30,385 bases of DNA, from the IMG/VR virus record IMGVR_UViG_3300020462_000029, positions 1-30,385 of that record; one strand, written 5' to 3'. A program made the translations under genes and the position numbers. This DNA comes from a virus. Positions 1-30,385 of this stretch are shown here, piece after piece. Position 1 is the stretch's first letter, and the number at the start of each line of letters is the position of its first letter. Below the pieces are notes generated by a model. It had not been told where the DNA came from. It did not search any database and was given only the letters and a program-made list of their open reading frames with translations.

Positions 1-3000
1 TATTTGATGTAACAAATGATACATTTACTATACAATGTCTAGAGACTATTCCATCGTCTAACCAGACTACACATAGCTTTGTATCTGCTGTAGCAAATGG
101 TATTAAACAGGCACAGGATGTTATTACGATCAAAGAGAATGGATTGGTATTTACTTGTGAAATGGACGCTAGATCAACGCTACATTCTTATCCAAGAGCA
201 ACTGATCCTGCCAACGGTGCACCATTGGGTATATACTCCGTTACAAGCGACACAGTAACAACTTTTGTAGGCAAGTCTCCTTTAGTAACTAAGACCCCTA
301 CAAACGCCATATACGACCCATCTAACGGTGAAATGGAGTTGGTTATTGGATCACATGATTTCTATGCTGGCCAGACAATTAAACTTGCTGATGGAGCAGT
401 TTCATTCACTTGCAATAGAGATAATTATAGAACTGTTCACAGTTATCCACGTACTGCATTTACTGGTCATGAACTAACAACTGTATACTATAATCCTAAT
501 AATGGGGTTATGACAGTTACATCACCGTCACATGGTTTCTCAAATAATGATTGGGTTAAATTCAAACCTGAAGCATTAGCAATGACTTGTGATCAAGATA
601 ATAATGTTTCTACAAAACTGTATCCACGTGCTACAGATTATGCCTATGATAGGTGGTTAAAGGTATCAAATGTTACAACTAATACATTTGACGTAACTGT
701 CCTTGATATTATACCTTCTACTAATATAAGTGCTCATACCTTTATTGCTGCACCTCAGATATCTCCATCTACAGCTGCATACAATGCAACTTCAGGTATA
801 ATGACAATCACTGATCAAAAGTACACTGTTAACACAGGAACTACCTATGATCCACAAACAGGATTGTTAGTAATGAATATTGGTGCACATAATTTAACTA
901 CAAAGAATAGTATTAGAATTGTAACAGATTCACTAACCTTTACATGTACATTAGATGGTGGTAGTGCACAGAAGACATATCCTCGTGCTAGTGGAACTGG
1001 TGTCAATGCTGGCGTTGCTGATTATGCATATCAAAGAAATCTCCCAATCACTGCATTTACTGCAAATACAATTAGTGTAAATGTAAACAATGGTGGCAAT
1101 CCTATCTCAGATTTATCTACACATACATTTGTATCTTCAACAACTAACTGTATTGAAGTTTGTCATGGATTGAGTAATGGTAATTTTGTCAAGATTAAAG
1201 ATAACTCACTATCATTTAACTGTACTCAAGGAGTTGGTACTAAAACATATCCAAGGCCATCCGTAAGAACTCTGAGTGCATCTGCACCCGCAAGTAAAAG
1301 TGTTACTTCTGCAACTTATGATCCTGCAACTGGACTTGTTGTATTAACCACTCCACAAGCAAATACTTGGGCATCAGCTCCGACTCAACATCAGGTGACT
1401 GGTGCAACATATGTACCATCAACAGGTATCATGACATTGACTATTGTAAATCATGGATTTACAGAATTAGAGTTGATTAAAATTGATGACGATGCTCTAA
1501 CATTCAAATGTGATGAGGACAGTCAAGCATCCGATCACACATATCCTCGTTCTACAGATCCTATCAGTGGTAAATGGATAGAAATATTTAATGTAACAAA
1601 TGATACATTTGATGTACAGGTTCTTGATATCATTCCATCTACTAATGTAACAACTCACGTATTCCAGTCAGCAACTGCAACAGGTCTAAGTCATGCAACA
1701 AGTAGTATAAGATTTTATCCTAATGCACTGAGCTTTACTTGTGCAATGGATGGCAATACTGCTACTAAGACATACCCAAGAGTAAAAGATCCATACTACG
1801 GTAGGAAGGTAGCAGTTACAGCAGTTAACAGTACAACTGCAACAGTATACGTTGGTAAATCTCCTATCGTAAATCATACTGGTACAGATGGTACATATGA
1901 TCCTGGCACAGGTACTTTAATAGTAGAAATAGGTGCACATACCTTAACTGTTGGCACAACTGTCAAACTTGCAAATAATGGATTTAACTTCCAGTGTGCT
2001 ACAGACAGTTATGGAAGTGACCACACATATCCTCGTGCAACTGCTGGTGATGGTAATCCTGATCCTGCATACGATACTGCTGTAACAATCTTAGCGGTAA
2101 CTGATACCACAATTACATTGAATGTTGGTATATCTCAAGATCTATCAACTCATAGATGGAAGCCTGGTTTCGTTGCAACTAATGCTATACAAAGTGGTGG
2201 TGGATATACTCATACTTGGACTGGTGGTGGTGAAGCTTACGCTTTAAATGCATCGAATTCAACATTAGGAAACTCAACTGGAACTCAATACTATCCAGAG
2301 ACAGGTATTTTACATATTACTACAAGTGTTGCTCATGGAATGAGAGAGAATGATTACGTTAAACTTGCAGACAACTCTATAACATTTGTATGTGAGCAAG
2401 ACAACTACAATACAACTCATTCATATCCACGTTCTACTGATTATGCTAGTGGTAAGTGGTTAAAGATATTCAATGTAACTGCATGGGAGTTTGATGTTAA
2501 GATTTTGGATAGTGTTCCATCAACTAACGTCAGCAAGCATGTATTCTCATCTTCAGTTCCTGATGGTATTACACATAAAGATCCTGCAAGTGGTAACTTT
2601 ATTGAAGTATCAAATGTTACACACAACACATTCGACGTACAGGTATTAACTAAAACACCTTCTACAAATACAACAACTCATACATTTGTTGGTGCTGATG
2701 CTGATGCAGTTTATGTTGCTCCATTCTTTAAGAAGAAAGATCCATTCTATGATACTGCATTAGAGATTATTTCTACATCTCCTGACTCAATTACAGTTGA
2801 TGTTCTGACCACTGATCAATCAACTAGTGTGTATAAACATAAGTTCCAATCTGCACTTTCTAACTCTGTAATTACGGGTGGTAATTATACACATAAATTT
2901 AAGTCTGCTGATGCAGGTTGTGTTAATACAGGAGACAGGCATACATTCATCTCTGCTGGCTCTAACTCAGTTACAAGAGCAATCGTATCTCATGGTTATC

Positions 3001-5057
3001 ACAATTATGATAAGGGTGCTGATGCTGCATCATTAATTAGAAAAAATCTTAACTTTATTGCAACTACTGCCTATGGTAGAATGCAAGCAAATAATCCATC
3101 CTTCTCTACTGTATATCAAACCAAGTGTCTTCGTGATACTAGACTACTTACTGATGCTGTAGCTGACAACGTTGAGTTTGGTGGTAATGATGCAACTTAT
3201 GATGCTGCTAAGTTCTATGTTGGATCTGCTCACTTGACTGGTGAGGAAGATGAATCAGTACAGGTATTCAACCATGCTAGAGATATATGTAACCAAATCA
3301 TGCGTAACATTACAGTTACCACAAATGCTGGCACTAAGGGTAAACAGATCAAGGATCTTACTATTACTAATGATAGTGGAAACAATGTATATGATACTAG
3401 TGACTGCACAGATATTGCATCTACAATAACAACATTATGGGGAATAGTCACGACTGCTGTTGGTACAACTGCAGGTGGATCTGGCAATCTTAACAGTGTC
3501 ACTAGAACTAGATCTAGCACACCTGACTTCCAAATCAATGTAGGTAGTGTAACCTTTGACGGAACTGATACAACATTTACTACATTATCTGGTGGTAGTA
3601 CACAGGTACTACCTGCATCAGATAACTTCTTGATATTCCTCAATGGTACATTGCAGATAAAAGGAACTACAGATGCATACACATATACTGGTAGTACAAT
3701 AACATTCACTGAACCACCTTTACCTGGCATGGACTTCTATGGATATTACTTTGGTAAATTAGTACTACTGGATGAGTTAGCTCCTTACTTTGATAGTAGC
3801 AGAACAACATTTGTGATGAAGAGTGATAATGAACCATTCTCTCTAGAGAGTGACAATAGTGCTGTTAATCCAGCAAACAACTTAATGATCTTTATTAATG
3901 GTATATTCCAAGAATCTGGTGTTGCATATACATTGAGAGGATCAGTTATTGAATTTACTGAAGCTCCAAGAGCTTCATCTGATTGTGTTATGTTCATATA
4001 CACTGGATCTGCAAATGATATTCTAGTTTCAAATACATTCAACTCTCTTGATCCTAATGACAGATTGCAAGTTGTTAGTGAAGGATCAGATCGTAGGATT
4101 GCAACTGTATCCAGTTCTAGTTCTGTGGATACATATGAATATATTGGGTTGAGACCAACTGTTGCTGAGTTCCAAGCTATCATTACAGGTGGTGAGGTGA
4201 CACAAGTTAATATTACAAATGCAGGTTCTAATTATGAAAATCCTCCTATATTACTTTTCACAGGTGGAGAAGGAAGTGGGGCAAGTGCTGAAACAATTAT
4301 TGAAGAAGGAAGTGGTAAAGTATTATCTGTCACTAACCTAAAAGGTGGTAGTGGATATACATCAACTCCAACAGTTATAGCTACACATCCAGTACACCTA
4401 GAAAGGTCTGAAAGAAACAGAATTGTATCTGATTCTAATTTACTTGGTGTTTCTTATCTTACATCATCTGTCAATGATAGTGCGACTACATTGAACTTGA
4501 GAAACGTTTGGTATAACACTTCTCAGAAATATGGTTTCCCAGATCAAGGTGAAGTTCTTATTCCTTACTACAATCCCGCAACAGATAGTTCTGGTAATGT
4601 AATAGGATGGAGAAATGAAAGAATTCTGTTTGGTGCAAAAGACATGTCTGCCAATACTTTAACTGTCGCAACAGGAGGTAGAGGATATTTTGGAACAACT
4701 GCTTTTGCACATAATGTGATTACTGGAACATACTCAGTAAATCAAAGCTCCAGAATTGTGACAATCACAACTGCTAGTGATCATAATATGCAAACAGGTG
4801 AGAATAGAATATTCCTAGATTTCACTTCTGGAACTAACATAAATCAATCAGATGCAGTTAACTACATTACCTATATTCCACCAGACGGAGTATATGATAT
4901 AACTAGGACTGGAAGTACAACTTTCACAATTCAACTTACGAAAGAATTGCGTAGAGATAATCCAGCTTCCGCAGGAAATTATTTGGACACAGGATATCCT
5001 GGCACAATTTCTGGAAACGTCTCGTTACTTCCAGAAGTTCGTCTGAGATCATTATAA
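1..5057 (+). CDS. Giant repeat-containing virion structural protein, 3' part (5' end outside the window)
   Basis: The frame is open from the first bases of the window (codons from position 3), so the gene starts upstream; the TTG near 144 lies inside a repeat and is not a start. At least 1,684 residues are present. From N to C they show: an array of nine Cys...YPR beta repeats (to about 2990); a helical Cys/GGND module (3009-3308) and a following helical segment (to about 3500); two copies of an NG-x-x-Q...FTE-x-P beta unit (3621-4010); two GSGY-type units (about 4190-4390); and a C-terminal FP-x-x-GE...GRGYFGT...H segment of a kind often seen in phage baseplate proteins. It lies directly upstream of gp8, where T4 has gene 7, so a baseplate-wedge or peripheral role is inferred. 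I cannot align it to T4 gp7 itself. It shares architecture with the gene at 23733. Cell location is the virion; function beyond structure is unknown. Confidence 0.85.
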   Translation, partial: FDVTNDTFTIQCLETIPSSNQTTHSFVSAVANGIKQAQDVITIKENGLVFTCEMDARSTLHSYPRATDPANGAPLGIYSVTSDTVTTFVGKSPLVTKTPTNAIYDPSNGEMELVIGSHDFYAGQTIKLADGAVSFTCNRDNYRTVHSYPRTAFTGHELTTVYYNPNNGVMTVTSPSHGFSNNDWVKFKPEALAMTCDQDNNVSTKLYPRATDYAYDRWLKVSNVTTNTFDVTVLDIIPSTNISAHTFIAAPQISPSTAAYNATSGIMTITDQKYTVNTGTTYDPQTGLLVMNIGAHNLTTKNSIRIVTDSLTFTCTLDGGSAQKTYPRASGTGVNAGVADYAYQRNLPITAFTANTISVNVNNGGNPISDLSTHTFVSSTTNCIEVCHGLSNGNFVKIKDNSLSFNCTQGVGTKTYPRPSVRTLSASAPASKSVTSATYDPATGLVVLTTPQANTWASAPTQHQVTGATYVPSTGIMTLTIVNHGFTELELIKIDDDALTFKCDEDSQASDHTYPRSTDPISGKWIEIFNVTNDTFDVQVLDIIPSTNVTTHVFQSATATGLSHATSSIRFYPNALSFTCAMDGNTATKTYPRVKDPYYGRKVAVTAVNSTTATVYVGKSPIVNHTGTDGTYDPGTGTLIVEIGAHTLTVGTTVKLANNGFNFQCATDSYGSDHTYPRATAGDGNPDPAYDTAVTILAVTDTTITLNVGISQDLSTHRWKPGFVATNAIQSGGGYTHTWTGGGEAYALNASNSTLGNSTGTQYYPETGILHITTSVAHGMRENDYVKLADNSITFVCEQDNYNTTHSYPRSTDYASGKWLKIFNVTAWEFDVKILDSVPSTNVSKHVFSSSVPDGITHKDPASGNFIEVSNVTHNTFDVQVLTKTPSTNTTTHTFVGADADAVYVAPFFKKKDPFYDTALEIISTSPDSITVDVLTTDQSTSVYKHKFQSALSNSVITGGNYTHKFKSADAGCVNTGDRHTFISAGSNSVTRAIVSHGYHNYDKGADAASLIRKNLNFIATTAYGRMQANNPSFSTVYQTKCLRDTRLLTDAVADNVEFGGNDATYDAAKFYVGSAHLTGEEDESVQVFNHARDICNQIMRNITVTTNAGTKGKQIKDLTITNDSGNNVYDTSDCTDIASTITTLWGIVTTAVGTTAGGSGNLNSVTRTRSSTPDFQINVGSVTFDGTDTTFTTLSGGSTQVLPASDNFLIFLNGTLQIKGTTDAYTYTGSTITFTEPPLPGMDFYGYYFGKLVLLDELAPYFDSSRTTFVMKSDNEPFSLESDNSAVNPANNLMIFINGIFQESGVAYTLRGSVIEFTEAPRASSDCVMFIYTGSANDILVSNTFNSLDPNDRLQVVSEGSDRRIATVSSSSSVDTYEYIGLRPTVAEFQAIITGGEVTQVNITNAGSNYENPPILLFTGGEGSGASAETIIEEGSGKVLSVTNLKGGSGYTSTPTVIATHPVHLERSERNRIVSDSNLLGVSYLTSSVNDSATTLNLRNVWYNTSQKYGFPDQGEVLIPYYNPATDSSGNVIGWRNERILFGAKDMSANTLTVATGGRGYFGTTAFAHNVITGTYSVNQSSRIVTITTASDHNMQTGENRIFLDFTSGTNINQSDAVNYITYIPPDGVYDITRTGSTTFTIQLTKELRRDNPASAGNYLDTGYPGTISGNVSLLPEVRLRSL
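3..2996 (+). repeat. Array of nine Cys...YPR protein repeats (array 1)
   Basis: Nine degenerate in-frame units, with YPR codons near 187, 441, 620, 977, 1248, 1541, 1773, 2027 and 2425. A full unit reads: YDP-x-[TS]G-x-[ML], a beta strand, HGF or AHTL, V/IK[IL]AD, then F-x-C-x-x-D...[TH]xYPR[AS]TD, then GKWL-x-[IV]-x-NVT-x-[ND]TFDVQVL...PSTN-x-x-THxF-x-SA. Each unit carries one cysteine, 11 to 12 residues before the Tyr of YPR. Units are diverged in DNA as well as protein, so this is a protein repeat rather than a recent DNA duplication. Some copies replace the PSTN tail with a VGKSP tail. Confidence 0.85.
3009..3308 (+). repeat. Helical Cys/GGND module, copy A
   Basis: About 100 residues of predicted helix inside an otherwise beta-rich protein. 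It starts with a DxAxxIxxNxxFIAxxA helix, followed by CLRDT, then GGNDATYDAAKFYV, and ends in an amphipathic helix closing on RN. Matching copies occur in the gene at 23733 (at 26979, 29361 and 29850). I do not recognise a named family. Confidence 0.75.
3621..4010 (+). repeat. Two copies of an NG-x-x-Q beta unit
   Basis: Unit 1 (about 3621-3755) and unit 2 (about 3876-4008) both read N-x-[LF]-[IM]-[IF]-x-NG-x-[LF]-Q-x-x-G-x-x-YT-x-x-GS-x-I-x-FTE-[PA]-P, ending in an aromatic-rich strand. Similar units recur widely in phage fibre and baseplate proteins. They probably act as spacer or contact domains. Confidence 0.7.
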
Positions 5058-19000: not shown

Positions 19001-22000
19001 ACCACTTACTATGTTATAGAGGTAACACAAAACCCTTCTACAGTAAAACTTGCTACATCACAAGGTGGATCAGCATTAACTCTTACAGCTGGAACTAGCG
19101 AAACTCATAAACTTAAAGGTGTTCAGGCAATTATAACAGCAGCTGTTGATGGAACAGGATCAGTTACTGGATTTACTATCACTGAAGCTGGAACTGGATA
19201 TGCAACAGCACCAAGCATAACACCAGCTGGTGGTGGAAATTCATTTGTTGGTTCAAGTACTATTGGTAGTGGTGTGGTTGAAATTGCTGCATCAGGTGGT
19301 GGTAAATGGACATCAGCACCTACAGTTACTATTACTAGAGATACTACTGACGCTGCATATGCTGTCAATGGTTCAGGTACATCTACTCTAGGATATATTG
19401 TTGCTTCTATTACCATGGGTAACAATGGTGGTAGAGGATACGTTAAGTTACCTCAAATTACTTTCACTGGTGGAACTCCTGATGTTGATGCATCTGGAAC
19501 TGCAGTTCTCAATGAATCTACTGGTGTATTGACTGGTATAACATTAGACAACGGTGGTGAGAAATATTCAACAGCTCCAACTGTAACAATAGAAGGTGGT
19601 TCTGGTAGTGATGGAGCTATTGGATTAAGTATACAATCATTAGATGGAACTATATCAAACGCAGGTAGTGGATATTCACCAGGCACATATGTTGGAAAAA
19701 ACTTTACTGGGGGAAGTGCTAGTGTAACTGCAACTGCAGACTTTACTGTTATAGGTTTAGGTGGAGCTATCACTGCAGGTTCTGGATATTTTGATGGATC
19801 TTATACTGGTACACTTGTCAGAAACCAACCTACTGCAACCTATACAGTTACTGTTGCAGCTAGAATTAGAGTTGAGGCAGATGTTAATACCGTTACTGGA
19901 ACGTTTAACATTGGTGATACTGTAACTGGTGCGGGTGGTGCAAATGGTGTTCTCACTGGTGTCAATATAGAAAGTACTAATTACAATATTGCTCATTTAT
20001 ATTTTGCTACTGTAACTAGCGGACCTTTTGCGGATGGAGAAGCAGTCACAAGTAGTAGTGGTGGTGGTGCAACTCTACAAGCAACTGGTGCACAAAGCAG
20101 CGTTAACAGATTTTTAATCGGTGGAGTTGAGACTCCAACTATTGCACTTACAAGAGGTAATACTTATAAGTTTGATCAATCAGATGCAACAAACGCATCT
20201 CATGTATTCACATTGCTCAATGTCCCACAGAATAACCAAGGTGGAAATGATATAGAGTTTACTGCAATTGGTACTGCAGGTTCAGCTGGAGCATACACTG
20301 AAGTTATCGTTAAAACATTTGCTGATGAAGCAGGATATGATTATGCTTGTGTAGCTCATGGCATTACAATGGGACGCATTGGTGGTATAACAGCATCTGC
20401 TGGTGCTGCAGGCACACATGGACACGGTGCCACTGCTGATGTTACAGTTGCTGGTGGTGCTGTAACTGCATTTACTTTAGTAAACCAAGGAAGTGACTAC
20501 GCTACTGGAATGGTCATGACTGTGGACATGTTCCAGATTGGTGATCAAGGTGGTGGTACTTTTGCAGGTTCTGGGTTCTTATATACAATTAATAGTAATT
20601 CCACTGGAATATCAAGTGTTACTAACATCTCATTAACTGGTACTGGATATCAGGCAGGTAACTCTCTTAGTGTTGCTGACTCTGATGTTGGTGGTGGAGG
20701 TGGTAGTAGTTTTGCTTTCAACGTAACCAAGGCTGGTTTCCTTAAAGAAGTTACAGTATCTAATGCAGGTAGAAACTTTAAGGTGGGGGATACTATTAGT
20801 GTACCTACTACAGTTGTTGATAACGGTGGTGGAACTGATTTTGTAATAAACGTTGGAACAGTTACTGAGAAAGATGTAACTAAACTAAAATATGATGGAT
20901 CACTTACTTCTGAGAACTGGTCATTCAGTAAGGAAGGAAATCTTACAATCAATCAGAATAAGTTCCTTGTTAACGCAACCTCTGGTAATACAACTATTGG
21001 TGGAACTGGTACACTTAACGTTGGTGGTAATACAGTTATTGGTGGAACCTTAAATGTAGTTGGTAATGCTACATTCCCAAATAACATTGTTGCTACTGGA
21101 TCAGATAATGATATTGATAATGCCAACATAAAGTTGCAGGATGGAACTGCACTTCTTCCTACACTATCTCTACAGAATAGTTCTACAACTGGTTTCTATA
21201 GACATAGTGCAGACAATATTGGTATTACTGTTGCAGGTACTGCAATTGGTACAATCGGTACATTTGGTGTTGATGTCAATAAACTACAGGTAGATGCTAC
21301 TGGAGCAAATGCTAACCCATTCTTCAAGGTAGATTCATCTACTACTAAAGTAGAGATTGGTACACAGGCTGCTAAGATCAGTATTGATAATACAAATACT
21401 ATCGGAACTGATGGTACAGATTTAAACGTTCCACTTAACTTTGATACCAAAGGACAAGGAAACTTTACCTTCAAGGGTGGTGCTTCGGTAAACTTTGAAA
21501 TCACTGATGGAACATCTAATATAGTAGATATTAACACTGAGACAGGTGTTTCTACATTCTCAGGTAATCTTGATGCTGGCATTTTACGTATTGCTGACAA
21601 TGTAATTAAGAATAATAGTACTTCTGGTACAAGATCATTTGGTCAAATTTTAGGAGTAACAGTTACTGGATCTGGAACTGGATATACAGACGGAACTTAT
21701 ACTGCATCTGCTACAACCTCTAGTGGATTAGGTACTGGATGTACACTTACAGTTACTGTTGCTAGTGGAGACTTCTCTGCTGTTACCATCGTAGCCCAAG
21801 GTCAAAATTATAAAGTAGGAGATACAATTGACATCACTGCAGCTGGCGGTGGGTCTGGCAGAACAATTACAGTTAATGATATAGATGGTCTTGGTGTTTC
21901 TATAGAACCAAGTACAGGATATGATATCCTATGCCAAAGCACTGGATCGTTAGTTGTACCTTCAGGTACTACAAACCAACGTCCTAATGTTTTAGATCGT

Positions 22001-23732: not shown

Positions 23733-26700
23733 ATGAGTCTCAAGTTTAATTCTGATCAACAGAGAATTGAAGCTTCTGGTGTAAAGGCAACAGGAAACTG
23801 GACAAATGCCACATACAGCAGAACAGCCGCAGGTGTTGTAAACATCGTGACGGTTGCCCATGGAATTATAGGCAGCGAAAAATTATATCTTGATTTCACT
23901 TCAGGCGGTGAGGTAGATGGCACATATACAGTATCAAAAGTAGATGATGATAATTTAACTTTTACAAGCACTAATTTAGGAGCAATTGCTGCAGGTAATA
24001 CAGTTTCATATAAGAGAGTACGTTCGTTAAGTATACAGGGTGATGAGAGTGTAGAATTTTCTATTGGTGCAGGTAATAATGAGAAAGATGCTTTATTCCT
24101 TAACCAAAACGCACAGAATAACGTTCGTATAGGTGTCAATACTACCGATCCCCAGTATGAGCTAGACGTTGAGGGACAGATTAGAACAACTCGTTCTATC
24201 ATTTCTGATACTGCACAGGTTGTTAACTTAGATATTCAGACAATTATAAACCCTGCACTGGCTCTTCGTGCACCAAACTTAATAAACTATGAAGATACAG
24301 ATGTAACTAGTCCTACTTTTGGAACTACATTCTATCCTACTGCTGACACTCCTCCTATAACTGATCAGTCTAGAAGGGTTGCTACTACTGACTTTGTATA
24401 TAAAGTTGCTACTAATGACACTGGTGGTCGTGTTTATGTATCTGCAACCATTGGTTCAGATCTAAATGATGGTCGTTCAGCTGCAAGACCAGTTCAAACA
24501 GTTAAGAAAGCAGCACAAATTGCTTACGGATTACAGAAAGCAGTTCCAGATGCTAGTGATGAATATGTTTCACTTATTGTATCTGGTGGTGAGTATCTAG
24601 AAGATAACCCAATCTCACTCCCTAGGAACTGTTCACTAATTGGTGACAACCTACGTCGTGTGGTTATAAGACCTGCGAACCAAGATCGCCACATGATCAA
24701 AGCGTCTAACGAAACATACATCTTTGGTGTTGTGTTCAGAGACGCACTACAAAACTCATCAGACCCACAAAGTTCAGTAATTCATACTTGGAAGTATGCC
24801 TTTGTGTTTGATGACAAACAAAGATTATACTACGAACCAGAGCTCAAGCAAATACCTGCAGTTCCTGGTGACAAGTTCCGTGGTGATAACATATTCAGTA
24901 TTACTTTTACTAACCACACAGGTAATAACACAACTCTAGAAGTTGGAGACTTTGTACAAGGTGGATCATCTGGTACACTTGGTACAATTCAGACTGTTAC
25001 ATTTACAGGTCCTGTAGCATCACCATACTCAACTGGTAGTGTAACGATATTAATTACATCAGGTGTTAACGACGTATTCCAAGACGCTGAAAAAGTATTC
25101 TATGATGATGTTGCAGCAAATATTATTACTGACATTAATAATGCAGGTGTATCAAATAGATTTGACGTTGCTGATGCTGAATCATTAAGACCAGAATTAG
25201 AAACAATCTCTAACCAGATCTATCAGCACACAATTAATTCTGAAAGAGAGACAATTGCTTTTTCTGCTGATGCTACTAAAGTTAATACAACTACAGATAG
25301 AATTACAATTACTGGTCACACCATAAAAACTGGTGATCAACTATACTATCAGAAAGATGAAAACACTGCTGCTCTAGGCGGTTTAATCGACAGTACAGCG
25401 TACTATGCAAGGTTTGTCGATGCCAATACAATTGAACTATATGACACTTGGGCAAACGCTAATGCAACCGTTACGGTTACCACAGGTAGAAAAGATATAA
25501 CAGCTGTATCTCCAGACGATAAACTTCATCTGTTTACTACTGGTAAGATAATGCCAGAGAGTAACAATATCTTTATTGATACTCATGGATTCCAAACTGG
25601 AGATGGTGTAATATATCGCTCAGGTAAAATGGGTGATGTAACTGGTCTTACTAATGGTACTACTTACTATGTCTATGTTGAGAATGTTAACTGGATAAGA
25701 CTTGCTGCGTCTGCTGCTAATGCAACTCAAAAAACTGCAGCTGGCCTTGATGATCCAATCACTCTTCCTATAACTGGAACTGGTTTAGGATATCAAAGAT
25801 TTGATCTTGCAACTAAGTTGCTATCAGTTACAACTATTGATACTTCGCTCGCTACTCAAGCAACCTATAATGGTCCTATTATCAATACTGCATCTAATAA
25901 TTATCATGACTATGAAGTAGGTCAAGAAGTTATTCTTTATGGTTTCCAAAGTTCTGCTATTAACTTTGGTGCTAGTACTAATGTATCATGGTCTTTAGCT
26001 AGTGGTAAAGTTACGGTTACTGTAAGTAGTGTAGATAATAGTTTAACTACTGCACTGTTCGGTAATTATCAAACTCTTGGGCAATGTGGAATTAAGTTTA
26101 ACTTTAGTGGATCTGGATCGGAAGCATTAAGTAAAACATACTTAATTGGTGAATTTACCAATGGTTCTGGAGCTCCTACTCTACCTAGTAACACTGCACT
26201 AGGTATGGGTTATGCAAGATATAATAGTTCTAACACTACTATTACTTTTGTACTTAAAGTAGCAGATATTCAATCTACAACAAATACTGCAACTGCAACA
26301 GGATCAACTGTTAGTATCTTAGATAATACTTCAGATTTAAATGGACGTAAGTACATTACACATCGTATTGAACGTGCTGATGGTTACTCTACTCAGTTTG
26401 TTGTTAGAGGTGAGTTTAGTAATGTTGGTGCTTCTATAAACCCAACTGGTGACCAATCAGTCATTGCATCTAATAACTATGTTCTAGCTTCCTTAAGGAA
26501 CTCTCCTTATGGATTTACCAAGATATCTCAGACAGATAGATTTAGAGATGGTGCAGAATCTATTAGAGCAAACCAAGAATTTATTGCACAAGAAGCATAT
26601 GGTTATGTTAAGTCATACCATGAAAAATCTTCTACTAGTGGAAGTAGTTTAGTAATAGGACCTACTACATTCAGTAGTTTAGGTATGAGGATGTCTAGTC

Positions 26701-29700
26701 CAATTACTAAGTGGTCTGTTTCATATAATAAACTTATCGTTAAGGTCAAGACTGGTCATAACCTAACACCAGCATACACAGTCACAATAGCTGGTAGTGC
26801 TACTGCTGCAATTAATGGAACTTGGCCTATAGATGACATCTATGATCATAGAGAATTTACATTAGATCTAGGAACTACTGCTTCAGATCTTAACGGATCT
26901 ACTGGAACAGATGGTACATACGAAGACGTAAGAAAACCATTTAGGACTCCAAATAGTTTCCCAGTTAATAACAAGCAATCTGACGCTGCTGATGCTATTG
27001 CAAGAAACGCTACATTGATCGCTGAAGTAGCCGTCAAGAAGATGATTGCTGACACTGGTTACAGTGTACCTACTGGAACTCAAGCATGTCTTGATGATGT
27101 TCAAGATTTCCTTAGCAAATCTCTTTACCATAACCTTAAATGGGGTGGTAATGACAGAGTATATGATGCTGCTAATTATTTTCTCAAAGAGGTAACTACA
27201 AGTAGTCAGAGTAAGTATATTACTGCATTTAATTATGCTAGAGATTATGCTATTAAGGTTCTTAGAAATCTACCAATTCTTAGACATCCACATAGTACTG
27301 TTGCTCAACAGTATGAGTTAACAACTCAAGATAATCCTGTAAACAATCAAGTTATAGATGGTGCTAACTTAATTAATGCAAACAATCTATTCATTGCAGA
27401 AGAAGCAGTTGAACGTTTTGTTTCTAAATTAATTGATGTTCCTGTCATAGCTACAGGTGGGTCTGGTGCATCTTCAACAATCACCATCAATGCCTTAAAT
27501 GGTACAACTCCAACCAATACTACAACCCATACATGGCAAGGTCTAGCAACCTATCAGTTTACACCAACTGGTGCTGTCTACAATCCTATTACAGGATTTA
27601 TGGATCTAACCATTACTGGTCATCCATTTGTAGATGGAGATAGAATTAAGATAGCGGCTAACTCCTTAACATTTAAGTGTGGTAAAGATGGAAATACTGC
27701 TAACAAAACTTATCCTCGTACAACTGATCCATATTATGATAAGTGGATTGGTGTTCAGAAAGTAGATGCTAATACTATTAAAGTTAATGTAGGACCTGCA
27801 CTAACTGATGCAACAACTCATACATTCCAGTCTGCAACTGCGAATGCTATAGAAAGAGCTACAGTCTTCAATGATGTTGGATTTACACAACACACAGTAA
27901 CTGGTGCTAACTATGAACCAGTAACAGGTAAATTAACCATTACTATTCCTAGTCATGGATTTACTGATGGTGAAAAAGTTCAGATAGCAAATAGTTCTAT
28001 CACATTCAAATGTGATATGGATGACAATTATTCTCTACACCCATATCCTAGAGCAACAGATCCAGCTGCAAACAGTTGGTTAACAGTTTCTAACAAGACT
28101 GATAATACATTTGAAGTTAATGTTGGAACTTCATTACCAGTAACCTTTACTCCTACAGGAGCAACTTATGATCCTACTACAGGATTGATGGAAGTTACTA
28201 TTGGTAATCATACTCTGGATGTAGGAACCAGTGTTAAATTATCAACTGGTGCGATTACATTTAAGTGTAATGAAGACAACTATGCAACAGAGCATCCATA
28301 TCCTCGTACATTAATAGACGTTCATAGTGCAACAACTGGTACAACATATGATCCTAATACAGGTATCATGAATATTACCACAACCGCTGCTCATGGAATG
28401 AGAACTGGCGATTGGGTTAAGATTGCAGATGATACATTAACATTTGAATGTGGATACAATGGTGCTACAGGTGCTGCTGCACAGAAAACATATCCAAGAT
28501 CTACTGACCCTATTTCTGGTCAGTGGCAAAAGGTAACTGTTGTAGACGGAACAAACTTTACTTTACAAGTTCTTGATACTGTACCATCTACTAACCTTGA
28601 TGCTCATACATTTATATCTGCTGTTGCTAACAGTATTACACAAAAACGTGATAGATCAAATGATACTGCTATTCCAATAACAGCTAAGACAGGAACAACA
28701 ATCACTCTTGATGTTGGTAAATCATCTAATACTACAAATCATACATTCCAGTCTGCTCTAAACAACTCAGTTGTTACTGGTGGTAACTATGCACATACAT
28801 TCATATCTGCAACTACAAACGGACTGAAGAGAGCAACATCATCAACCATCAATAGTTACAGTAGTGCTATAACTGCTGGTGGAGCGTCCAACACATATAA
28901 TCCTACTACTGGAGATATGGTCTTGGTAGTTGGTGCTAATACTTTATCTGCTCCTACAACACATACTCCTACTAATGGTGCGTACAACCCAACATTGGGT
29001 ATCTTAACATTAACAATTGCTAATCATGGTTTCTCAGCAGGTGATAAAATTAAGATGGGATCAGGTGCTGTTACATTCAACAATGGTACTTTACCAGGTG
29101 CATCTTATCAAAATAAATGGATCAATATATTCAATGTAACTCAGAATACATTTGATGTTAAAATTGGTACAGGTTCTGGTACATGGTCATTTAGTTCTGC
29201 TGCAACTAATGGTGTAAGTTACGCAACTTCTACAGTTAGAATTTCACAAGAATCATTACAGTGGAGTTGTACACATGGAGATGGAAGTACTAAGAAGTAT
29301 CCAAGATCTACTGACCCACTACTCACTCCTGGCTTTACAATTCCTAATCATAATCAAGATTGTAAGGATGACGTTTCTGATGTTTGTAGAGCTGTTGCTT
29401 ACAACTTAGGTCATGGTGGTAATGATGCTGTTTATGATCATGCAGGTTACTTTGTAGGAACTCCTCATGTAGATGGAGAAGAATTTGAAGCACGTGCAGT
29501 ATTTGAATTAGCAAGTAATATCACACAACAAATTATTTCTAATGAAACTGTTAATATTATAGGATGGCATGGATATACACAGAGTAAAGATTTAACTATT
29601 ACAGTTAGTGGAGACGGATGTGCTTCTCACAAATCAACAGTAGATACGTTATTCTCTATCGTTGAACAAGCAATTGTTAATGATAGTCTAAGTCATGCTA

Positions 29701-30385
29701 CTGATACAACTGCAACTAATCCAACTTGTGCTAACGTAGTATCTGCTGTCACAACATTCTTCAGCACCTTAACAACTGCTTTAGGATCAGATGGTGCATA
29801 TGGAAACTTAGATGGTGTAACAAGAACATTCTCACCTGGTGATCAGCAATGTCTTGATGATATATTACATATTCTTAGATCATTCCAATTCGATTTAAGG
29901 TATGGTGGCAACTCTTCTGTTGTTGAAGCCGCTAACAAATATATTAGTAGTGGTGCTATTGCACATGTCACTGAGGAAGTAGAATATACTCGTGCTATTT
30001 TTGCATACGCTAAAGAATTATCAATCAAAGCACTCAGAAATGATTTAGAACCAGGTTTCTATTCACAGATTGCTCCTGTTTCTCTCGGATCAACTACAGT
30101 AGACCCAAGTGCTCCTGAGTGTGCTAACGTTGTATCAGCATTGACTACAAACTGGGGTATCCTTGATAACGTATTGTCAAGTGCTACTCTTTATACTGGT
30201 ACTATTACAGCTCCTGATCCTGTAGTTACAGAACAGGATGGTTCCAAATATAGTTTCCCACTTGGAAATGTATTCCTAGATCTTCCAGTTATTGAAGCAT
30301 CTCCTTACATTCAGAACTCTTCACTTATATCATTCCTTGGTGGTTCTGGTTGTGAAATTGATGGTGCTAAAGTTGCTACACCTAA
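23733..30385 (+). CDS. Giant beta-helix/repeat tail fibre protein, 5' part (3' end outside the window)
   Basis: ATG at 23733 preceded by AAGGA (23721-23725). The frame was read to the right edge with no stop, giving 2217 complete codons. Residues about 35-85 form an AHG...LDFTSG...DGTYTVSKVDDDNLTFT unit. Residues 133-150 (IGVNTTDPQYELDVEGQI) are the fibre motif often seen near S74-type fibre ends. From residue 231, RVYVSATIGSDLNDG...VQTVKKA...SLIGDNLRRVVIRP...YAFVFDD is a pectin-lyase-like beta-helix. Then follow HGF-x-TGD units, helical modules (26547 and 26979-27269), five YPR repeats (about 27560-29340) and two further Cys/GGND modules. Near the edge, SPYIQNSSLISFLGGSG looks like return of the beta-helix. 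It shares repeats with the gene ending at 5057. Probably a host-binding fibre. Confidence 0.85.
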   Translation, partial: MSLKFNSDQQRIEASGVKATGNWTNATYSRTAAGVVNIVTVAHGIIGSEKLYLDFTSGGEVDGTYTVSKVDDDNLTFTSTNLGAIAAGNTVSYKRVRSLSIQGDESVEFSIGAGNNEKDALFLNQNAQNNVRIGVNTTDPQYELDVEGQIRTTRSIISDTAQVVNLDIQTIINPALALRAPNLINYEDTDVTSPTFGTTFYPTADTPPITDQSRRVATTDFVYKVATNDTGGRVYVSATIGSDLNDGRSAARPVQTVKKAAQIAYGLQKAVPDASDEYVSLIVSGGEYLEDNPISLPRNCSLIGDNLRRVVIRPANQDRHMIKASNETYIFGVVFRDALQNSSDPQSSVIHTWKYAFVFDDKQRLYYEPELKQIPAVPGDKFRGDNIFSITFTNHTGNNTTLEVGDFVQGGSSGTLGTIQTVTFTGPVASPYSTGSVTILITSGVNDVFQDAEKVFYDDVAANIITDINNAGVSNRFDVADAESLRPELETISNQIYQHTINSERETIAFSADATKVNTTTDRITITGHTIKTGDQLYYQKDENTAALGGLIDSTAYYARFVDANTIELYDTWANANATVTVTTGRKDITAVSPDDKLHLFTTGKIMPESNNIFIDTHGFQTGDGVIYRSGKMGDVTGLTNGTTYYVYVENVNWIRLAASAANATQKTAAGLDDPITLPITGTGLGYQRFDLATKLLSVTTIDTSLATQATYNGPIINTASNNYHDYEVGQEVILYGFQSSAINFGASTNVSWSLASGKVTVTVSSVDNSLTTALFGNYQTLGQCGIKFNFSGSGSEALSKTYLIGEFTNGSGAPTLPSNTALGMGYARYNSSNTTITFVLKVADIQSTTNTATATGSTVSILDNTSDLNGRKYITHRIERADGYSTQFVVRGEFSNVGASINPTGDQSVIASNNYVLASLRNSPYGFTKISQTDRFRDGAESIRANQEFIAQEAYGYVKSYHEKSSTSGSSLVIGPTTFSSLGMRMSSPITKWSVSYNKLIVKVKTGHNLTPAYTVTIAGSATAAINGTWPIDDIYDHREFTLDLGTTASDLNGSTGTDGTYEDVRKPFRTPNSFPVNNKQSDAADAIARNATLIAEVAVKKMIADTGYSVPTGTQACLDDVQDFLSKSLYHNLKWGGNDRVYDAANYFLKEVTTSSQSKYITAFNYARDYAIKVLRNLPILRHPHSTVAQQYELTTQDNPVNNQVIDGANLINANNLFIAEEAVERFVSKLIDVPVIATGGSGASSTITINALNGTTPTNTTTHTWQGLATYQFTPTGAVYNPITGFMDLTITGHPFVDGDRIKIAANSLTFKCGKDGNTANKTYPRTTDPYYDKWIGVQKVDANTIKVNVGPALTDATTHTFQSATANAIERATVFNDVGFTQHTVTGANYEPVTGKLTITIPSHGFTDGEKVQIANSSITFKCDMDDNYSLHPYPRATDPAANSWLTVSNKTDNTFEVNVGTSLPVTFTPTGATYDPTTGLMEVTIGNHTLDVGTSVKLSTGAITFKCNEDNYATEHPYPRTLIDVHSATTGTTYDPNTGIMNITTTAAHGMRTGDWVKIADDTLTFECGYNGATGAAAQKTYPRSTDPISGQWQKVTVVDGTNFTLQVLDTVPSTNLDAHTFISAVANSITQKRDRSNDTAIPITAKTGTTITLDVGKSSNTTNHTFQSALNNSVVTGGNYAHTFISATTNGLKRATSSTINSYSSAITAGGASNTYNPTTGDMVLVVGANTLSAPTTHTPTNGAYNPTLGILTLTIANHGFSAGDKIKMGSGAVTFNNGTLPGASYQNKWINIFNVTQNTFDVKIGTGSGTWSFSSAATNGVSYATSTVRISQESLQWSCTHGDGSTKKYPRSTDPLLTPGFTIPNHNQDCKDDVSDVCRAVAYNLGHGGNDAVYDHAGYFVGTPHVDGEEFEARAVFELASNITQQIISNETVNIIGWHGYTQSKDLTITVSGDGCASHKSTVDTLFSIVEQAIVNDSLSHATDTTATNPTCANVVSAVTTFFSTLTTALGSDGAYGNLDGVTRTFSPGDQQCLDDILHILRSFQFDLRYGGNSSVVEAANKYISSGAIAHVTEEVEYTRAIFAYAKELSIKALRNDLEPGFYSQIAPVSLGSTTVDPSAPECANVVSALTTNWGILDNVLSSATLYTGTITAPDPVVTEQDGSKYSFPLGNVFLDLPVIEASPYIQNSSLISFLGGSGCEIDGAKVATP
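26547..26630 (+). repeat. First helix of the helical module, isolated copy
   Basis: DGAESIRANQEFIAQEAYGY matches the opening helix of copy A (DxAxxIxxNxxFIAxxAYG), but no Cys/GGND part follows directly. Confidence 0.6.
26979..27269 (+). repeat. Helical Cys/GGND module, copy B (complete)
   Basis: 97 residues with the whole module: SDAADAIARNATLIAEVAV, then ACLDDVQDFL, then WGGNDRVYDAANYFL, ending in an ARDYAIKVLRN helix. Collinear with copy A at 3009 in the other giant gene, including the closing RN. Confidence 0.75.
27357..27434 (+). repeat. First helix of a split helical module (copy C)
   Basis: DGANLINANNLFIAEEAVER matches the opening helix of the module, but the Cys/GGND half appears only at 29361, after the YPR array. 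Confidence 0.6.
27560..29340 (+). repeat. Array of five Cys...YPR protein repeats (array 2)
   Basis: YPR codons near 27710, 28046, 28299, 28490 and 29298, with the same F-x-C-x-x-[DG]...YPR core, the YDP-x-TG opening and HTF-x-SA endings as array 1. The KTYPRSTDPISG stretch near 28490 is nearly identical in protein to HTYPRSTDPISG near 1541, showing a common origin of the two arrays. Confidence 0.85.
29361..29543 (+). repeat. Helical Cys/GGND module, second half of split copy C
   Basis: CKDDVSDVCRAVAYNLGHGG followed by NDAVYDHAGYFVGTPHVDGEE and a closing amphipathic helix ending QQIISN. It is close to copy A, including the GxxHxxGEE stretch. The following KDLTIT segment and the Cys-containing helices to about 29810 also have counterparts after copy A (about 3345-3510). 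Confidence 0.75.
29850..30041 (+). repeat. Helical Cys/GGND module, copy D (diverged)
   Basis: CLDDILHILRSFQFDLRYGG, then NSSVVEAANKYI, and a closing AKELSIKALRN helix. The GGND is changed to GGNS and YDAA to VEAA. It is followed by a CANVVSALTT helix like that near 3403. Confidence 0.65.

Follow-up and report, generated by a model that had tools for sequence, protein, structure and literature searches.

Predicted phycobiliprotein-fold modules in a long insert within the beta-helix of a cyanophage tail fibre

Introduction

Functional genes for bilin synthesis and bilin lyases occur in marine T4-like cyanophages; their role has been called a mystery, since Prochlorococcus has no intact phycobilisomes (PMC3037559, PMC2984593). 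These phage bilin genes have been described previously (PMC3037559, PMC13198022), as have the hypervariable host-recognition clusters of the same phages (PMC7029224). The phycobiliproteins, pigmented light-harvesting proteins of the host, frequently contain a CXRD motif, in which the Cys bonds covalently and the remaining two residues by hydrogen bonds (PMC10151467), and in beta-phycocyanin Cys153, located shortly before the last helix, is the site of T-type lyases (PMC10452541). The BBAGs are divergent bilin-binding globins outside light harvesting, some of them with CXRD; in this they are like the phage modules described here, but they are free cellular proteins of bacteria and not modules of a phage tail (PMC10151467). 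In a literature search that left many journals uncovered, no account of phage virion proteins homologous to phycobiliproteins came up.

The DNA analysed here (the window) is an entire IMG/VR entry of 30,385 bases, and the gene at its end encodes the giant tail fibre of a cyanophage of the eurybiavirus type. The same gene is known from the Prochlorococcus phages P-HM1, P-HM2, and MED4-213 (YapH or tail fiber protein; T4-GC 513, phrog_5342), whose fibres share with that of the window the position after gp7, the two beta-helix halves, and the kinds of module between them. The window fibre differs in having an insert about 200–310 residues longer and in the order of its modules: in the window the array of HGF/YPR (Y) modules comes after a helical module, in P-HM2 before one. 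A second described type, the short P-SSM2_293-type fibre (phrog_17885), is homologous to the window fibre in its beta-helix and C-terminal part; P-SSM2_293, with 617 aa in total, has no beta-helix insert, and the P-SSM2 genome has no helical (H) modules.

Results

The fibre open reading frame encodes 2217 aa, contains GGRVYVSATIGSDLNDG, and is still open at the 3′ end of the record (Table 1). The genes upstream of it, gp7 and that of a small virion protein, are arranged as in P-HM2 and P-HM1. The cyanophage tail fibre profile phrog_5342 matches it with 1196 bits over 9 stretches, and the fibre region is conserved in P-HM1, P-HM2, and MED4-213 with 58–61% identity. Pfam had nothing above its cut-off for the fibre, and no PDB sequence matched the full-length protein. 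The fibre ORF of another phage, S-B43 (L011 12125-14641), has only 838 aa, the last ~60 of which are without similarity, as if a frameshift or sequencing error had occurred.

Table 1. Features of the window (nucleotide positions; residues refer to the fibre protein)
Feature	Position	Strand	Remarks
Giant tail fibre gene (P0001)	23733..30383	+	aa 1-2217; 3′ end beyond record
Beta-helix, first half	24378..24821	+	aa 216-363; ends YAFVFDDKQ
Whole beta-helix insert	24822..30296	+	aa 364-2188; boundaries ±~10 residues, from empty homologues
Conserved beta-rich stem of insert	24822..26597	+	aa 364-955
Variable core	26598..29840	+	aa 956-2036
Module H1 (helical, phycobiliprotein-like)	26916..27392	+	CLDD at nt 27087
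HGF/YPR (Y) module array	27534..29348	+	between H2 first helices (aa 1213-1240) and H2 CxxD helix
Module H2, helices E-H	29346..29702	+	CKDD at nt 29361
Outer module H3, helices E-H	29841..30227	+	CLDD at nt 29850; first helices at stem end
Beta-helix, second half (start)	30300..30383	+	SPYIQNSSLISFLGGSG
Phycobiliprotein-like module in ORF1	2994..3497	+	CLRD at nt 3126; module folded with AF2

The beta-helix is divided by a long insert

Two motifs of one beta-helix domain, YAFVFDD (aa 355, nt 24795) and SPYIQNSS (within SPYIQNSSLISFLGGSG; aa 2190, nt 30300), are 1,835 residues apart in the window fibre. The original prediction, made from the letters of the window, had noted a stretch of about 1,800 residues here and had read it as a large insertion, modular in build, into a loop of the beta-helix, containing HGF units, helical modules, and five YPR repeats. 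All of these are present, with the YPR repeats at aa 1327, 1438, 1523, 1587, and 1856; the identity of the helical modules had not been recognised.

Natural empty sites and profile comparison of both halves support the insertion. In P-SSM2_293, S-SRM01, S-CAM9, SynMITS9220M01, and 22 IMG/VR loci, the counterpart of YAFVFDD is followed within ~10–15 residues by that of SPYIQN, giving an uninterrupted beta-helix such as VIAFDPDKIQYVNQSPYIRFCTN. It is because such uninterrupted homologues exist (P-SSM2, S-SRM01, S-CAM9) that we call the ~1,825 residues after YAFVFDDKQ an insertion. A profile built from 14 uninterrupted domains was compared with filled fibres by HHalign: profile residues 5–101 matched the N half (E 1.9e-19) and residues 134–219 the C half (E 1.3e-18), so that both halves match a single domain, in order. 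Downstream of the beta-helix, filled and empty fibres have SSHxxEYxGSG...GGxVxYTSxTxxxGxFxxG in common. In the 59 environmental loci that include both ends, these are 754 to 2,425 residues apart, the spacing in Synechococcus phage isolates is shorter than in the window fibre, and S-T4 has an intermediate insert of ~290 residues with the same module types at the same site. The outcome that would have refuted the original prediction, an invariable presence of the same 1,800 residues, was thus not encountered, and the alignment with marine T4-like phage fibres that it had called for yielded some without the insert (P-SSM2_293, S-SRM01, S-CAM9, SynMITS9220M01).

It could be argued that nothing was inserted, the halves being separate domains and the short proteins deletions or unrelated. 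The direction of change, gain or loss, has not been reconstructed on a tree, and AF2 built no continuous beta-helix for the minimal natural form (L066 aa 215-1410), in which the stem was predicted with a pLDDT of ~85–90 and the beta-helix halves without confidence (pLDDT mostly 30–65). Since the model is not confident there, the statement that the halves form one continuous helix rests on sequence. We nevertheless consider the absence of an insertion improbable, given that the halves correspond to successive stretches of a single 222-residue domain with E ~1e-18 each, that the uninterrupted domain is seen in 22 IMG/VR and several isolate proteins, and that S-T4 has its intermediate insert at the same place. 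The beta-helix of the window fibre is, as judged from these alignments, interrupted by an insert; the empty state has not been reconstructed as the ancestor.

Y modules also occur after the beta-helix, in the short fibres of S-CAM9 and P-SSM2 (L107 aa 300-625, L017 aa 297-373), and the beta-helix loop is therefore not their sole acceptor site.

The insert is layered and varies by whole modules

In the relative L066 (spacing 754), the N and C flanks have 726 and 456 residues, respectively, and only 14 residues stand between them. These flanks align with the window fibre over 740 (aa 216-955) and 181 residues (aa 2037-2217), leaving a variable core of 1,081 residues in the window. The relatives of this group have both flanks as well, aligning end to end, and an intervening 286 to 1,652 residues. 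Because the flanks align with L066 and the region is kept in P-HM1, P-HM2, and MED4-213, the pattern of the fibre is not due to chance. The stem ends in the first helices (FIAQEA, ~aa 933-960) of an outer phycobiliprotein-like domain, and the variable site lies inside this helical domain, with FIAxEA on one side and the CxxD helix on the other. The insert is layered: a conserved beta-rich stem is followed by a helical domain, and the helical domain contains a variable array of further H modules and of Y modules.

Core lengths differ between fibres by ~107 residues, the size of one Y module, or by twice that number (547 to 764, 764 to 872, 1081 to 1186, 1309 to 1527, and 1442 to 1652). The array is the same, at 93% identity, in the closest relative, L030; L041, with a flank 85% identical, has an array one module longer. 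The DNA of the window array contains no long or near-identical tandem repeat, only matches of 67–84%, some of them common to ORF1. Expansion by near-identical DNA repeats was dropped as an explanation for lack of any long tandem repeat, and module turnover within this genome is therefore not recent.

We somewhat favour the inference that the insert works as an arm on the fibre. It would leave the side of the fibre through the conserved stem and display phycobiliprotein-fold and Y modules; gain, loss, and re-ordering of whole modules would alter the reach, tip, and surface of the arm and leave the fibre axis untouched, and the arm may contact the host or neighbouring tail parts.

The helical modules resemble phycobiliproteins in sequence and predicted fold

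A first AF2 model gave many phycobiliproteins in Foldseek for the helical domain. A profile of 16 H modules searched against all PDB sequences gave 69 matches at E ≤ 10 (best E 7.2e-4), the best 60 of which were all phycobiliproteins or named relatives; the alignments span helices A/B–E and place the phage Cys on the chromophore Cys. In Pfam, the phycobiliprotein family PF00502 matches 5 of the 16 modules (best E 1.2e-4), and other families match no more than one module each. Searched against phage genomes, PF00502 exceeds its curated cut-off in S-WAM2 (26.6 bits) and S-RSM4 (22.5 bits), reaches it (22.2 bits) in the S-WAM2 gene homologous to the window fibre, and is above it in only one of 14 control genomes. 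The window's own modules have no match to PF00502, and for this reason we call them homologues and not members of the family. HHalign of the H modules against a phycocyanin profile of 19 non-redundant cyanobacterial chains gave a probability of 94.6, an E of 6.8e-8, and a score of 51.7, with maxima of 21.1 for 200 column permutations and 17.6 for the reversed profile. In the reverse search of a Thermosynechococcus genome with the phage profile, CpcB was first (E 4.6e-4) and CpcA, assigned by its position in the locus fetched with CpcB, was second.

The ORF1 module of the window was modelled by AF2 with 42 natural relatives (pLDDT 87.9, pTM 0.86), giving helices at 2–17, 19–33, 39–62, 66–76, 85–103, and 139–161. 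The best 50 matches to this model were all phycobiliproteins, both in Foldseek (probability 1.00) and in VIA (Z 17.8, 2.2 Å over 145 residues with phycoerythrin beta), and the globin-like helices A-B-E-F-G-H are predicted in it. The module alignments begin at phycobiliprotein residue 28, and the sequence upstream of the module lay outside the model. The N-terminal X/Y helices, by which phycobiliproteins form alpha-beta pairs, have no counterpart in the modelled module.

Helical bundles often score moderately in structure searches, and the identity with phycobiliproteins (C-phycocyanin, phycoerythrin beta) is only ~20%, as would be expected had the helical arrangement been reached independently. 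Such an origin is strongly disfavoured, and we consider it very improbable: sequence profiles alone match phycobiliproteins in the PDB and Pfam and the reverse search agrees, two phage genomes exceed the curated PF00502 cut-off, and the Z of 17.8 is higher than the ~14 typical of helical models without a clear match, with one family taking all of the best 50 places. In our judgement it is established, from profiles and predicted structure, that the H modules are homologous to phycobiliproteins, though divergent, and have the bilin-binding globin fold; their precise alignment past helix E is not established. That the fibre has both a ~1,825-residue insert in its beta-helix and phycobiliprotein homology in its H modules is a conclusion we hold with high confidence.

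Cys and Asp of the chromophore motif are conserved

H modules share with phycobiliproteins the Cys and Asp of the chromophore motif. Among 381 phage module matches, those covering the site have the Asp in 100% and the Cys in 98.6% of cases; in 183 non-redundant modules the CxxD Asp is invariant and the Cys is present in ~97%. The +2 position is often Asp and not the Arg of phycobiliproteins (Arg 45%, Asp 43% of the 183). All four modules of the window retain Cys and Asp (CLDD, CKDD, and CLDD in the fibre), and Arg occurs only in that of ORF1 (CLRD). A second Cys, 91% conserved, directly precedes helix H (Cys138 in the model, helix 139–161); it takes the place of the beta-153/155 Cys of phycobiliproteins in topology only, without residue-by-residue alignment.

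Two of the three fibre H modules are split by inserted arrays between their first helices and helix E, and arrays beside the pocket could disturb it. This, together with the spread of residues at +2, would suit modules that descend from phycobiliproteins and have lost the chromophore, serving only as a stable helical scaffold in which the two conserved residues, Cys and Asp, would have the task of capping helix E or would contribute to packing or a disulfide; we give such a loss an even chance. It has to be set against Cys, Asp, and N61 being the most conserved positions of the module and the second conserved Cys standing at the topological place of the beta-153/155 Cys (PMC10452541).

Phage lyase genes co-occur with the modules

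Bilin genes were surveyed in 22 phage genomes, 15 with and 7 without H modules. CpeT (PF06206) was found in 12 of the 15 and in none of the 7 (Fisher 7e-4; 3e-3 without two near-duplicates). The p value overstates the case, given the relatedness of the phages and their non-random choice. In five Synechococcus phages (Syn1, S-RSM4, S-PM2, S-WAM2, and S-CAM3), a giant module-rich tail gene follows cpeT on the same strand at a distance of 0.7–1.4 kb; in P-HM2, the gene 2.7 kb downstream of cpeT has a similar start, but no modules were detected in it. Despite their modules, G003, S-T4, and P-SSM7 gave no CpeT. Bilin reductase (PF05996) was over the cut-off in 7–8 of the 15 genomes with modules vs. 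3 of the 7 without (P-SSM2, S-SSM7, and pelagiphage Mosig), showing no association (p 1.0). The missing link with bilin reductases and the module-bearing genomes with no detected lyase speak for a loss of the chromophore; the co-occurrence of cpeT with the modules speaks against it. In 2017, Gasper et al. reportedly found that a phage CpeT bound PEB without transferring it to a host phycobiliprotein.

Published counts give pebS or pcyA in 6 of 6 Prochlorococcus phages vs. 1 of 10 Synechococcus phages (Table 3 of PMC3037559), a contrast for which we obtain a Fisher p of 9e-4. The bias would be expected if the phage of a bilin-poor host brings its own synthesis, and other reasons are possible. 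All of these bilin-gene associations are leads and not proof, as they rest on small sets of related phages that we selected in part ourselves.

Three single observations concern the survey. Syn1 (W04 19950-20462) has a full CpeT match (E 1.5e-35), and none is given for it in Table 3 of PMC3037559; that table lists CpeT for P-SSM7, yet no match was obtained in our analysis. Mosig EXVC030M (W12 39713-40231), whose host is not a cyanobacterium, has a bilin reductase but no H module.

Possible pigmentation of the tail

The H modules may still bind bilin, attached by a CpeT-type phage lyase or by host lyases. Site conservation, lyase co-occurrence, and gene adjacency favour this; the reductase result, the lyase-free genomes, and the arrays near the pockets count against it. 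With no data on bound bilin, the inference that the fibre H modules carry it is possible, somewhat short of an even bet. The wider proposal, that cyanophage virions are pigmented by phage or host bilins placed on their own tail phycobiliprotein-fold modules via CpeT among others, is advanced more tentatively still. Were it true, pebS, pcyA, ho1, and cpeT of Prochlorococcus phages would have in the tail modules the substrate that has been missing. Phycobiliprotein homologues of the phage tail that keep the attachment residues are, in any case, a candidate substrate for the phage bilin enzymes, and this makes the question of the phage bilin genes directly testable. The uses of a pigmented tail are not known; light- or redox-dependent adsorption, stability, and attachment are candidates.

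The findings also point to a fold of host photosynthesis reused as a repeating building block of the virion, situated in what may be an arm, nested within another domain, that lengthens by entire modules.

Modules in other proteins

Searches of 50,697 phage records found module matches only in Synechococcus and Prochlorococcus phages and in one marine single-cell virus. None of 292 cyanobacterial genomes had an H module at E ≤ 1e-5, which shows merely that none is close. Within the giant virion proteins that carry them, and unlike in phycobiliproteins, the H modules occur as repeats. ORF1 of the window (3..5057), a second giant virion protein truncated at its 5′ end, has ten Y-module matches and one H module, and modules are therefore common to more than one tail gene. 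The P-HM2 stretch that matches ORF1 is annotated as gp7 baseplate wedge initiator.

Very long proteins consisting almost wholly of tandem CxRD modules occur in L153 and L154 (IMG/VR 3300051212_000254 and 3300022752_000020; G003), in which CpeT and bilin reductase were not found. A single record of 159,920 bases contains 34 module matches.
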